DNA of 64,000 nt, taken from positions 310,001 to 374,000 of the forward strand of contig NZ_QQZY01000001.1 in NCBI RefSeq assembly GCF_003351045.1, given 5' to 3'. This document shows, one piece after another, positions 50,764 through 56,785 of the stretch. The stretch's first letter is position 1. Each line of letters begins with the position of its first letter. The notes under the pieces are model-generated. The model had not been told where the DNA came from, did no database searches, and saw only the letters and a list, made by a program, of their open reading frames with translations. This stretch comes from Gaiella occulta. Its GTDB lineage: Bacteria; Actinomycetota; Thermoleophilia; Gaiellales; Gaiellaceae. The translations under genes were made by a program, and so were the position numbers.

Positions 50764-52211
<1,448 letters not shown>

Positions 52212-52337
52212 GTGAAATCGCCTCCCGCAGCTCTCGCGGCCATCGCCGCTCTCGCGCTCCCGTCGCTCGCCTTCGCCGGCGGGCGGACGGGCATCGCCCT
52301 CACGGCGGCCCCACTCGCAGCCGATATGCCTTCTTGA
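52212..52337 (+). CDS. small signal-peptide-like ORF coupled to the sigma factor gene
   Basis: 41 residues from GTG 52212, with AAAGGACCG upstream. It is essentially a signal peptide: KSPPAALAAIAALALPSLAF, cleavage at AFA-GG, then a short tail. Its TGA (52335-52337) overlaps the TTG start of the sigma factor (52334), the same coupling used by neighbouring genes. It may be a short leader peptide, a small secreted protein, or a chance ORF. I do not recognise it. Confidence 0.4.
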   Translation: MKSPPAALAAIAALALPSLAFAGGRTGIALTAAPLAADMPS

Positions 52338-53590
52338 CGATGGCCGCCTTCGAACGCACGCCGGCCCATCCCGGCAACTCCCCGGCTCGCGACGGAAGCG
52401 ACCCAGCGGCACTTTGCATCGGGCGGCTGTACGAAGAGCACTCCCGGATGATCCGGGCGCTCTGCCAGCTGCTGCTGCGCAACCCGTTCGACGCCGAGGA
52501 CGCCGCCCAGCAGACGTTTCTCTCGGCCTTCGGGAGCCTCATCGACGGCACCGTCCCGAAGCTGCCCGCGCCCTGGCTCGCGACGATCGCACGCCGCGAG
52601 TGCTGGGCGCGCACGGCGCAGCGGCGGCGCCAGCCGGTGGCCCTCGACGAGAGCAACGCCCCCGCCTCGGCGGCGGACAATCCGCTCGACGAGGCCATTC
52701 GCAACCTCGACCTGGCGGCGCTCTGGCGCGCGATCAACGACCTGCCTCGCAAGCAGCGCACCGCCTTCCTGATGCGCGAGTTCGCCGGACTCTCCTACGC
52801 CGAGGTGGCCGAGGCGCTGGGCGCGACCGAGTCAGCCATCGAATCGCTGCTCGTGCGCGCCCGCCGACAGGTGCGCGACGGCCTCGAGCCTGCCGTGCGC
52901 GCCGCGAACCTCGTTCTCACTCCGGTCGTGCTCCTCCAGCACCGCCTCGGACGCCTCCTCGGCGAGCGCGGAGCCGCCACGGGAGCAGCGGCGACCGCGG
53001 GGATTCCCGCGGCGGCCAAGCTCGGAGCCCTCGTGGGAGCTGTTGTCGTCGGCTCGGCCGGGATCGGGGGCGGCGTCCTCTACGACCGCACCACGGCCCA
53101 CCGTGCCCCCCTCGATCTCTCCGCGCGGACCCCCGCGCCGAATGCAGGCACGGTCTCGAGCGCTCTCGACCGGCTGCTCGGAGAACCGGTGGCCGGCAGT
53201 CTGTTCCCGCTCACGAGCGGCCGCGACCCACTCGGCAGCCCGCCCTACGCGTCCGACCGCGCCGCCGTCCCCTCCGGCGGCATCAGCCCCGCCGGCGCGA
53301 CCACAGCCGGCAGCGCCCAGGCGCCGAGCGAAGGAACATCGACCGGCGCTGCCGGCACCGATTCCAACCCGGCAGATCCTGCAGCCGACCCGACCGCCTC
53401 GAGCAACCCGAGCTCCGCCGCCGACTCGCCGGAAACGACAGACACCGCGCCGACCGACACGACGCCACCCGCCGACATGACGTCCAGCGTCGACACCACG
53501 CCGACCCTCGATCCGGCGCCCGCGGACAGCTCGCCTACAGCCACGGATGACCCGGCGACAGCGCCCACCGACACCACCGCCGGTCCCTGA
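52334..53590 (+). CDS. ECF-type sigma factor fused to a membrane anchor and Ser/Thr/Pro-rich tail
   Basis: 418 residues from TTG 52334, or 416 from ATG 52340. Sigma region 2 spans about 30-98 (LYEEHSRMIRALCQLLLRNP, FDAEDAAQQTFLSAFGSLID) and region 4 about 125-182 (LDLAALWRAINDLPRKQRTA, GLSYAEVAEALGATESAIES, LLVRARRQVRDGL). A membrane helix follows at about 226-250 (KLGALVGAVVVGSAGIGGGV), then about 165 residues of Ser, Thr, Pro, Ala and Asp, presumably outside the cell and possibly glycosylated. There is no separate anti-sigma gene next to it; the tethered form may be controlled directly. Such membrane-linked ECF factors are known in Actinobacteria. Confidence 0.85.
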   Translation: MTMAAFERTPAHPGNSPARDGSDPAALCIGRLYEEHSRMIRALCQLLLRNPFDAEDAAQQTFLSAFGSLIDGTVPKLPAPWLATIARRECWARTAQRRRQPVALDESNAPASAADNPLDEAIRNLDLAALWRAINDLPRKQRTAFLMREFAGLSYAEVAEALGATESAIESLLVRARRQVRDGLEPAVRAANLVLTPVVLLQHRLGRLLGERGAATGAAATAGIPAAAKLGALVGAVVVGSAGIGGGVLYDRTTAHRAPLDLSARTPAPNAGTVSSALDRLLGEPVAGSLFPLTSGRDPLGSPPYASDRAAVPSGGISPAGATTAGSAQAPSEGTSTGAAGTDSNPADPAADPTASSNPSSAADSPETTDTAPTDTTPPADMTSSVDTTPTLDPAPADSSPTATDDPATAPTDTTAGP

Positions 53591-53708: not shown

Positions 53709-54158
53709 TCAGCGGAGCAGCCTTCCGGCGGCGACGAGCAGCCTGTTCCCGGTCTTGGCGTAGCGCGCGCCGTCTTCGGCGTACGTGATCGAGGCCGCAC
53801 GCTGGTGGGCGAGGCGGGCGCGCCCGCTGGCGGCCCACATGCTGCCTGCGAGGGAGTAGTACGTGTACGCCGTGAGGGCGAGACGGCGCGCTCGGCGACC
53901 CTTGGCCGTCGTGGGCTCCTGGGCCGCGATCGCCGAGCGGGCGCGCAGCGCGTCCCGGTGGAACCGATCGGCGCTGTAGGTCATTCGGCGGGGGTGGCGC
54001 CGACGGGCCGCGAGCGCGACCGACCTCCCGTCCGCGCTGATCTGCTTCGACCAGGTGTTCAGGGTCGTGCGCAGCGTGGCGGCGCTCGCGCCGGCGCCCG
54101 CCGCGAGTGCCAGCGGGAGCGCGACGGTCGCGACGAGCAGAAGCGGTACACGGTGCAT
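53709..54158 (-). CDS. secreted hypothetical protein
   Basis: 149 residues from ATG 54158. A signal peptide (RVPLLLVATVALPLALAAGA, cleavage at GASA-A) and then an all-helical basic domain (TLRTTLNTWSKQISADGRSV, SADRFHRDALRARSAIA, LALTAYTYYSLAGSMWAASG). No family name recognised. Convergent with the sigma factor gene, whose end is 118 bp away. Confidence 0.7.
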   Translation of the reverse strand: MHRVPLLLVATVALPLALAAGAGASAATLRTTLNTWSKQISADGRSVALAARRRHPRRMTYSADRFHRDALRARSAIAAQEPTTAKGRRARRLALTAYTYYSLAGSMWAASGRARLAHQRAASITYAEDGARYAKTGNRLLVAAGRLLR

Positions 54159-54223: not shown

Positions 54224-54526
54224 CTAGCCCTCCTGGCCGCTCTGGCCGTTGTCGCCCTGCTCCTCGCTCTGGTCGTTCGGGCCCTGCTGGTCGCCGCTCT
54301 GGTCGTCGGCGGCCGTGCTTGCGGCCTCCGCCTGGACGTCGTCCGCGGCATCGGCGACGTCGTTCGCCGCGCCCTGCTCGTCGACGCCCTGCTGGCCGCC
54401 CTGCACGTCCGACGTGGCGGTCGAGGTGTTTCCCGCGGGCGTCGTGTCCGCCAACGCCGAGGCAACGCCCAGGCCGGCGGCGATCACACCGGCGGCCATC
54501 ATGATCCCGATCTTCCGCTTCGACAT
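54224..54526 (-). CDS. small secreted acidic Gln/Gly/Asp-rich protein
   Basis: 100 residues from ATG 54526 with GAGGACG upstream. Signal peptide RKIGIMMAAGVIAAGLGVAS with cleavage at ALA-D, then a low-complexity acidic tail (GNTSTATSDVQGGQQGVDEQ, GDQQGPNDQSEEQGDNGQSG). It lacks aromatic residues after cleavage and is probably disordered. It precedes the helical secreted protein in the same direction by 65 bp. Confidence 0.65.
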   Translation of the reverse strand: MSKRKIGIMMAAGVIAAGLGVASALADTTPAGNTSTATSDVQGGQQGVDEQGAANDVADAADDVQAEAASTAADDQSGDQQGPNDQSEEQGDNGQSGQEG

Positions 54527-54698
54527 CTCGTCCTCCTTCGTCTGTCGCGTCTGGTCGCGCGTTCACCCGGCAAGAGCGCCAGCAGCCGAGAAACATGCGC
54601 CTCACCGACGAGAATCCCCCGAACGGGGCCCGGCCCAGCCAGGCGCCGTGTCCGCGCGCGAGCGCAGCTACCAGCTCGGTGACGAAGACTTCCAGCCG

Positions 54699-56326: not shown

Positions 56327-56785
56327 ACACTTTCGCTCAACGGGCTCACTCCCGCAGAGCTCGGCGCCTGGCGCGGACTGCTGCGCGTGCACGCGCAGCT
56401 CGTGCGCGAGCTCGACCGCGAGCTGCAGGAGGAGCACGGCCTGCCGCTCCACGCCTACGAGGTGCTGCTCGTCCTCGAGCGCTCCCCCGGGGCGCGGCTG
56501 CGCATGTCCGAGCTCGCCGACGCGGTGCTGCTGAGCCAGAGCGGGCTCACCCGCCTCGTCGACCGGCTCGCGCGCGACGGCCTCGTCGAGCGGTCACGCT
56601 GCGCGGACGACCGGCGCGGCCTGCTCGCCCACCTCACCGCCGCAGGGCGTGCGCGGCTCGCGCAGGCCCGGCCCACGCACCTGCGCGGCGTCCGCGAGCG
56701 CTTCCTCGCGCACCTCGACGAGACGACGCTGCGGGAGCTCGCCGCCGTATGGGAGCGCGTCCTTCCCGGCGCGGCCTCCGAGTGA
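56321..56785 (+). CDS. MarR family transcriptional regulator (MhqR-like)
   Basis: 154 residues from ATG 56321 (TTG 56315 is possible). MarR features: LHAYEVLLVLERSPGARLRM, recognition helix LADAVLLSQSGLTRLVDRLA, wing GLVERSRCADDRRGLLAHLT. A Cys in the wing (SRCADDRRG) could act as a redox/quinone sensor, though that is inference. It is divergent from the dioxygenase-hydrolase pair and should repress them and itself through the repeated sites. The next gene (GT4) starts 14 bp later but is functionally unrelated. Confidence 0.9.
   Translation: MQTLSLNGLTPAELGAWRGLLRVHAQLVRELDRELQEEHGLPLHAYEVLLVLERSPGARLRMSELADAVLLSQSGLTRLVDRLARDGLVERSRCADDRRGLLAHLTAAGRARLAQARPTHLRGVRERFLAHLDETTLRELAAVWERVLPGAASE

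Follow-up and report, generated by a model that had tools for sequence, protein, structure and literature searches.

A zinc-finger-less clade of putatively membrane-tethered ECF sigma factors in Gaiella occulta and its relatives, and a rare promoter-like motif ahead of genes for secreted proteins

The 64,000-nucleotide stretch of Gaiella occulta DNA analysed here (the window) encodes an ECF sigma factor whose sigma regions are followed, in the same chain, by a membrane-like segment and an acidic tail. Tethering as such is already known (ECF48/52/53, IutY), and the clade to which the window protein belongs is a zinc-finger-less variant. What this analysis adds is a promoter-like motif of rare occurrence, CGCAnGTTT-N13..16-CTCT. 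The model that we favor, in which the tethered ECF would be freed by proteolysis and would drive few secreted genes from this rare promoter, is put forward tentatively, as a reading that, taken as a whole, falls somewhat short of probable. The features of the locus, with positions in the window, are as follows.

52149 to 52177, + strand: stretch at the motif position before the leader; -10-like CTCTAG present, -35 GTTT absent
52200 to 52205, + strand: Shine-Dalgarno-like AAAGGA of the leader, six bases ahead of the leader GTG
52212 to 52337, + strand: 41-codon leader ORF, signal peptide and short stretch, read as a putative remnant of a DUF5666-like partner
52340 to 53590, + strand: membrane-tethered ECF sigma factor, alternative start TTG 52334
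52427 to 52627, + strand: sigma region 2 (Pfam PF04542, Sigma70_r2, 2.7e-8)
52715 to 52870, + strand: sigma region 4 (Pfam PF08281, Sigma70_r4_2, 3.4e-17)
53021 to 53077, + strand: single membrane-like segment LGALVGAVVVGSAGIGGGV (hydropathy; low-confidence AlphaFold helix)
53090 to 53587, + strand: acidic Ser/Thr/Pro-rich tail, presumed outside (composition; model low-confidence, mostly unstructured)
53709 to 54158, - strand: second small signal-peptide protein, basic; ATG 54158; next gene on the same strand
54227 to 54526, - strand: small secreted acidic protein, predicted target; ATG 54526, 73 nt downstream of where the motif starts
54573 to 54599, - strand: CGCATGTTT-N14-CTCT, a promoter-like motif for which the genome has this and one other exact site

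The window protein has sigma-70 regions 2 and 4 only, as in an ECF sigma factor, with Pfam and TIGR02937 matches above cut-off. One hydrophobic segment lies C-terminal to region 4, behind a linker of ~50 residues (residues 228-246 from ATG 52340, mean hydropathy 1.84); it is Ala/Gly-rich. The tail comprises 166 residues, of which Ser, Thr and Pro make up 45%, and carries a net charge of -15. The C-terminal membrane helix with a long tail, a trait of ECF48/52/53, is thus present in the window protein, as judged by hydropathy. In the AlphaFold model, pLDDT exceeds 90 at residues 21-90 and 131-180 (the sigma core), a long helix (164-208) runs on continuously from region 4 with falling confidence, and a helix at 225-238, of low confidence, coincides with the membrane segment. 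No zinc finger was found in the window sigma, and no Pfam match was obtained for the tail of the window protein or of the 11 clade members scanned. The initial annotation had described the sigma regions, the single membrane-like helix and the Ser/Thr/Pro tail, and Pfam, hydropathy and composition confirm this description. It had also named loss of the tail in orthologues as evidence against its reading; the orthologues were checked and retain a tail, the sequence of which varies freely among them. For the role of wall-stress sensor that the annotation offered as one possibility, the tail gives evidence neither for nor against. Its remark that no anti-sigma gene adjoins holds for the five neighboring ORFs scanned (leader, 50178, 50764, 53709, 54227), none of which gives an anti-sigma Pfam match.

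In a tree of 49 related ECFs, the window protein falls within an 11-row zinc-finger-free clade (support 97/92). A weakly supported neighbor of the clade, L075 (86/47), matches the bare zinc-finger pattern but has no Pfam zf-HC2 match. A ten-member profile finds 23 genes at 185 bits or above in 21 of the 103 genomes of the family, with the next match at 163 bits, and in an even draw of 349 genomes across the class (eight candidates scored per genome) the 21 genomes with E <=1e-50 all belong to the same family. A contig search with the single window protein gave no match, and one with the clade alignment gave 79 loci, mostly weak ECF matches of other groups. GDP-mannose dehydratase was tried as a synteny marker and set aside; of the 6 other genomes in the genus, 2 gave a match.

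A hydrophobic segment of at least 1.45 follows region 4 in 21 of the 23 clade genes; the genes below this value are G100, which is short (1.31), and G013 (0.97), which is truncated where its contig ends. G092 is truncated in this way too, yet its segment is present. In a frame control on those 21 genes, which used slightly different stretches than the preceding count, the other two frames reach 1.45 in 0/21 and 1/21 and the true frame in 20/21. Pfam detects a zinc finger in none of the 11 clade members scanned, and an Hx3Cx2C-like pattern is absent from all 23 clade genes. The relatives thus support, together with the window sequence, the earlier reading of the protein as a membrane-tethered ECF.

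Sigma regions followed by a membrane helix are likewise found in ECF52 (SCO4117) and in ECF48 and ECF53 of Actinobacteria, and the Pro-rich outer stretch of ECF52 is comparable to the tail of the window sigma (PMC8999054 and PMC5826349, in the parts available). In the latter source, SCO4117 is described with a zinc finger, a membrane region, a Pro-rich stretch and a carbohydrate-binding module. The window clade, in contrast, has neither the zinc finger (zf-HC2) nor a carbohydrate-binding domain, and it is not filed in ECF48/52/53 because it is without the zinc finger and a recognised outer domain. It differs further in the secreted partner gene that overlaps or abuts the sigma gene in relatives, and in a predicted regulon of few secreted genes rather than a pleiotropic one. 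IutY of Pseudomonas putida (ECF243) is a sigma-TM chain cleaved and activated by Prc and RseP, according to a section of PMC5411451, and a passage in PMC8999054 expects a like proteolytic activation for ECF48, ECF52 and ECF53; the window clade may work like these three. IutY shares with the window sigma the sigma domain, the single membrane segment and the outer part in one chain, whereas the outer part of the window protein is of low complexity, with no recognised anti-sigma domain, and no receptor gene is found among the same five neighboring ORFs.

Since zinc-free anti-sigma domains are common (those without the Hx3Cx2C motif, in an excerpt of PMC7406223), the main rival to control by the tether alone is a clamp hidden in the linker: a degenerate, zinc-free helix between region 4 and the membrane would act as an anti-sigma in cis and respond to a conformational signal, with or without proteolysis. 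The continuous model helix from region 4 and the partial conservation of the linker within the clade are consistent with such a clamp, and a zinc-finger version of the sigma/partner pairing exists in the same genome. This protein (G000:C7, L226:3551-5609) resembles the window sigma in having sigma regions, a membrane-like segment and a tail, and also in its overlapping DUF5666-like gene, which is without the motif. A zf-HC2 domain (22.5 bits against a cut-off of 22.2) has, however, been retained C-terminal to region 4, ahead of the segment. A linker of ~50 residues, however, equals the lower cut for such domains in that excerpt of PMC7406223 and half their average of 101, and the 11 scanned members lack any other anti-sigma Pfam match as well as the zinc finger. 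We consider the clamp unlikely.

Tandem pairs of tethered ECFs beside an lpdA-like gene (named by eye) were seen in other genomes of the family (L047, L051, L058, L060, L062, L053). In the five tandem pairs in the tree, one copy has the zinc-finger pattern and the other does not (a single copy of the L053 pair was long enough for the tree). The zinc-finger-less rows form a nested clade, which suggests a loss of the zinc finger independent of that in the window's clade.

A signal-peptide ORF overlaps or abuts the sigma start in 12 of the 23 clade loci, and in nine of these it is DUF5666-like. The nine partners belong to one family (ORFs of 218-318 codons), marked by DUF5666-like stretches and an end rich in Asp and Gly; when the first 25 residues are left out of the count, net charges range from 0 to -24, so not all of the nine are acidic. 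The remaining three upstream ORFs are acidic in G019 (136-157 codons), 61 codons long at the paralogue in the window's genome (G000:C2), and shortest, with 41 codons, in the window leader. In G119 and G121 the sigma gene is followed directly by a DUF5666-like gene, in G115 such a gene is on another contig, and a partner was not found in eight of the 23 loci (seven with flanks read, and G001, which is cut by a contig end). The remote G115 partner reaches the Pfam cut-off for DUF5666 (PF18914, 37.1 bits vs 27), and a single profile picks up this partner as well as the adjacent ones; the adjacent partners of G006 and G020, in contrast, are below this cut-off, and those of G035, G064 and G065 have no score, likewise the gene at G000:C7.

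The DUF5666-like profile matches in 26 of the 103 genomes, 13 of the 21 with the clade sigma and 13 of the 82 without (P 6e-5), a contrast that is biased because nine of the first 13 are rows of the search profile. With these rows removed, the partner is present in 4 of 12 genomes with the sigma and in 13 of 82 without it (P 0.14), and the contrast was therefore dropped as support. Structure prediction for the partner, from a two-sequence alignment, gave a mean pLDDT of 35, and a profile search of the PDB gave weak matches (best E 0.0029). Among the papers listed by literature searches, whose coverage of subscription papers was small, none was seen to tie DUF5666 to sigma factors.

The sequences ahead of 11 partner or leader genes, a set that does not include the leader of the window, have in common CGCAnG(T/A)TTT and a CTCT-like box, with 22-25 bases between the first bases of the two and a position 60-105 bases ahead of the start codon. 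In G035, the hexamers GCAAGT and CTCTTA are separated by a spacer of 16, and about 16 bases between the boxes is the usual spacing of ECF promoters. In 18 genomes, a strict pattern, GCAnGTTTT-N11..15-CTCT, has 14 sites and its reverse has 3; eight of the 14 belong to the operon of the clade itself, and the window's genome has no such site. The loose pattern, CGCAnGTTT-N13..16-CTCT, which was picked after the matrix had revealed the site at 54599 of the window, gives 24 sites in 42 genomes against 6 for its reverse; the 21 genomes that have the sigma account for 17 of these sites, and the 21 sigma-free genomes for 7. Eight of the 24 are at the clade operon, two in the window's genome and one 88 nt before the remote G115 partner; two neighbor other tethered ECFs, one precedes a small membrane-like ORF in G012, and the remaining ten are chance-like or unclear. 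A strong match was also seen at G034:C19:37216 (L123), 140 nt ahead of a 454-codon ORF that has no signal peptide.

The motif goes with the sigma. All 11 DUF5666-like genes that adjoin a sigma gene have matrix scores of 20.4-33.3 (nine scored leave-one-out; those of G119 and G121, downstream of the sigma gene, were never in the matrix). Among the 13 such genes scored in sigma-free genomes, the top score is 14.3 (G073), followed by 12.4 (G009); this set includes two doubtful starts (G120, G032), and a fourteenth gene, of G102, was left out. Fisher's test for motif score against presence of the sigma yields 4e-7, and 0.0095 when the adjacent set is restricted to the two independent genes; since the genomes are related, the events are not independent. 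G002, of the window's genus, keeps the DUF5666-like gene, and both the sigma and the motif are absent (score 6.5). The DUF5666-like gene that overlaps the zinc-finger tethered sigma gene at G000:C7 scores 7.0, and several of the clade loci without a partner are also without the motif.

These sites would be read by the clade sigma, in the window's genome presumably by one or the other of its two copies. Sites like GCAAGTTT occur beside other tethered ECF clades too, so another tethered sigma could read them. The motif might then belong to a different regulator, a tethered ECF or a repressor, with the clade sigma merely travelling with the partner gene, and both the eight of 23 loci in which no partner was found and the presence in the window's genome of two clade members and at least one further tethered ECF are in line with this. 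The motif nevertheless tracks the sigma (11 of 11 adjacent genes reach a score of 20, against 0 of 13 sigma-free ones), and its box spacing fits an ECF promoter. Another owner of the motif is, in our estimate, about as improbable as the clamp.

The GCAAGTTT sites at L053 (8820, -), L065 (7525, -) and L129 (G015:C141), which lie beside other tethered ECFs, adjoin a gene for a small membrane-like protein (MGIxNRRNAxxGW...KKKA). A variant, TGCAnGnTTC...CGTCT, was seen 57-60 nt upstream of the DUF5666-like genes at L241, L248 and L249 (G107, G106, G101), in genomes without the clade sigma or without its motif; a different tethered sigma may read this variant.

An exact match to CGCAnGTTT-N14-CTCT occurs twice in the 3.03 Mb genome of the window, both times 73 nt upstream of the ATG of a secreted acidic protein. 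With one mismatch allowed, the N14 pattern has 4 sites, against 2 for the reversed pattern; the two one-mismatch sites are in the paralogue's operon and inside an 888-codon ORF. The protein behind the window site (54526-54227) has a net charge of -17 after the first 25 residues. The second exact site (G000:C4:254109) lies ahead of the ATG of a secreted RTX repeat protein (L108:1574-2248; HemolysinCabind 4.1e-44, net charge -36), a calcium-binding protein and likewise a predicted target. The site at 54599 scores 18.3. In the 561 kb made up by both strands of 20 loci, among which tethered ECFs are frequent, 6 positions attain this value. Position 56335 (-) of the window, between divergent genes, has a higher matrix score of 19.3 and no match to the strict pattern. 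A scan for sigma-70 promoters was empty, and one terminator-like site was found, at chance level.

The two signal-peptide-like ORFs at 53709-54158 and 54227-54526 bear out the earlier mention of small secreted proteins downstream on the opposite strand. Their treatment there as bystanders may not hold for the second of them, which is a candidate target because it carries the clade's promoter-like motif. The protein encoded at 53709-54158 has no Pfam match, and its gene is possibly co-transcribed with the acidic-protein gene. Homology of the acidic protein to the G019 partner was considered and rejected, none being detectable, and in 40 relatives the protein has no clear relative, with one match at E 0.005. 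At the window locus, control of the sigma gene by its own product by way of the motif finds no support and was set aside, as the leader promoter scores 2.0 against the matrix of the relatives and is not recognisable as the motif. With the motif missing there and a site at the adjoining secreted gene, the window copy appears to lack self-activation.

The leader and the sigma gene are in close contact: the leader TGA (52335-52337) overlaps the TTG at 52334-52336. This overlap was described in the initial annotation and stands, with the correction that an in-frame ATG at 52340, two bases past the leader stop, is at least as likely a start as the TTG. No Shine-Dalgarno sequence is seen by eye at either codon. 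In G000b, G019, G091 and G092, a CGAAAGGA site is found ahead of the leader or the partner. A GGCGACGACTAGC-like junction recurs in several loci (noted with L085, L089 and L083, i.e. G064, G125 and G124). In G064, G125 and G124 the sigma reading frame has no ordinary start codon near the junction with the partner stop, which fits coupled or overlapping starts.

The start of the leader is more similar to the N-termini of five of the nine partners than shuffled leaders are (G064, 0/2000 shuffles; G091, P 0.001; G035, G006 and G020, P 0.0085-0.018), while six of the 11 comparisons are not significant (the four other partners and the leaders of G019 and G000b). Four unrelated signal peptides of the window's genome score 15, 18, 31 and 31 against the leader, and the five significant partners 36-56. 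The leader ORF has the signal-peptide-like stretch and lacks the DUF5666-like domain itself. These sequence comparisons suggest that the leader is probably a partner gene shrunk to its signal peptide, with translational coupling to the sigma gene kept. Coupling, as first proposed, finds support in the sequence and in the relatives, and the earlier picture of a free-standing signal-peptide ORF would give way to that of a remnant of a DUF5666-like partner.

The leader might instead be untranslated, a by-product of high G+C, with the sigma starting alone at ATG 52340. Short ORFs are abundant, the third-position G+C of the leader is 0.76 where the two predicted targets have 0.95 and 0.90, and the non-significant N-terminus comparisons also point this way. 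This is nevertheless less likely still than the two alternatives above, given that a ribosome site is seen ahead of the leader but not ahead of the sigma gene, that signal-peptide ORFs end at the sigma start in 11 other loci, and that five partner signal peptides are similar to the leader. In the proposed model, translation of the leader, a shrunken partner gene with a ribosome site and a signal peptide, would bring ribosomes to the sigma start.

The rest of that model can be described as follows. The ECF would be anchored by its C-terminal membrane helix, with the acidic tail outside, and the resting sigma would be held at the membrane, with no need for a separate anti-sigma. An event at the surface, namely binding of a secreted partner to the tail, its loss from the tail, or cleavage of the tail itself, would trigger site-1 and then site-2 (M50) proteolysis and set the sigma domain free. 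M50 proteases are present in the window's genome and in all 14 control genomes, and proteolytic release of the window sigma, an option already raised in the initial annotation, is plausible by analogy with IutY. Once released, the sigma would recognise CGCAnGTTT-N13..16-CTCT and activate a very small set of genes for secreted proteins: in nine relatives the DUF5666-like partner with its Asp/Gly-rich end, and then the sigma gene itself; in the window's genome the acidic protein at 54526-54227 and the RTX calcium-binding protein encoded elsewhere. A sigma active while membrane-bound, its tether localising the transcription of secreted-protein genes and silencing nothing, would suit the secreted nature of the predicted targets and the lack of a recognised inhibitory domain, but is very unlikely, as IutY, the only characterised sigma-TM chain named in the part available of the review, works by release (PMC8999054, PMC5411451).

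IutY is also the only experimentally characterised case of activation by proteolysis named in that part of the review (PMC8999054), and the comparison of relatives now gives a specific candidate promoter and a predicted regulon of 1-3 genes. The clade and its neighbors form a natural series in which the zinc finger is present or absent and the partner is upstream, downstream, elsewhere, shrunken or not found. The candidate promoter, the small regulon and this series make it directly testable whether the tether alone replaces the anti-sigma. In its furthest form, the proposal would describe a one-protein switch from surface to gene, in which the anti-sigma domain has been lost, the tether alone controls the sigma, and the protein senses its own secreted, possibly calcium- or wall-binding partner and serves a regulon of 1-3 secreted genes; we regard this form as rather doubtful. 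If true, it would be an unusually small surface-to-gene signalling circuit, dedicated to a handful of secreted proteins.
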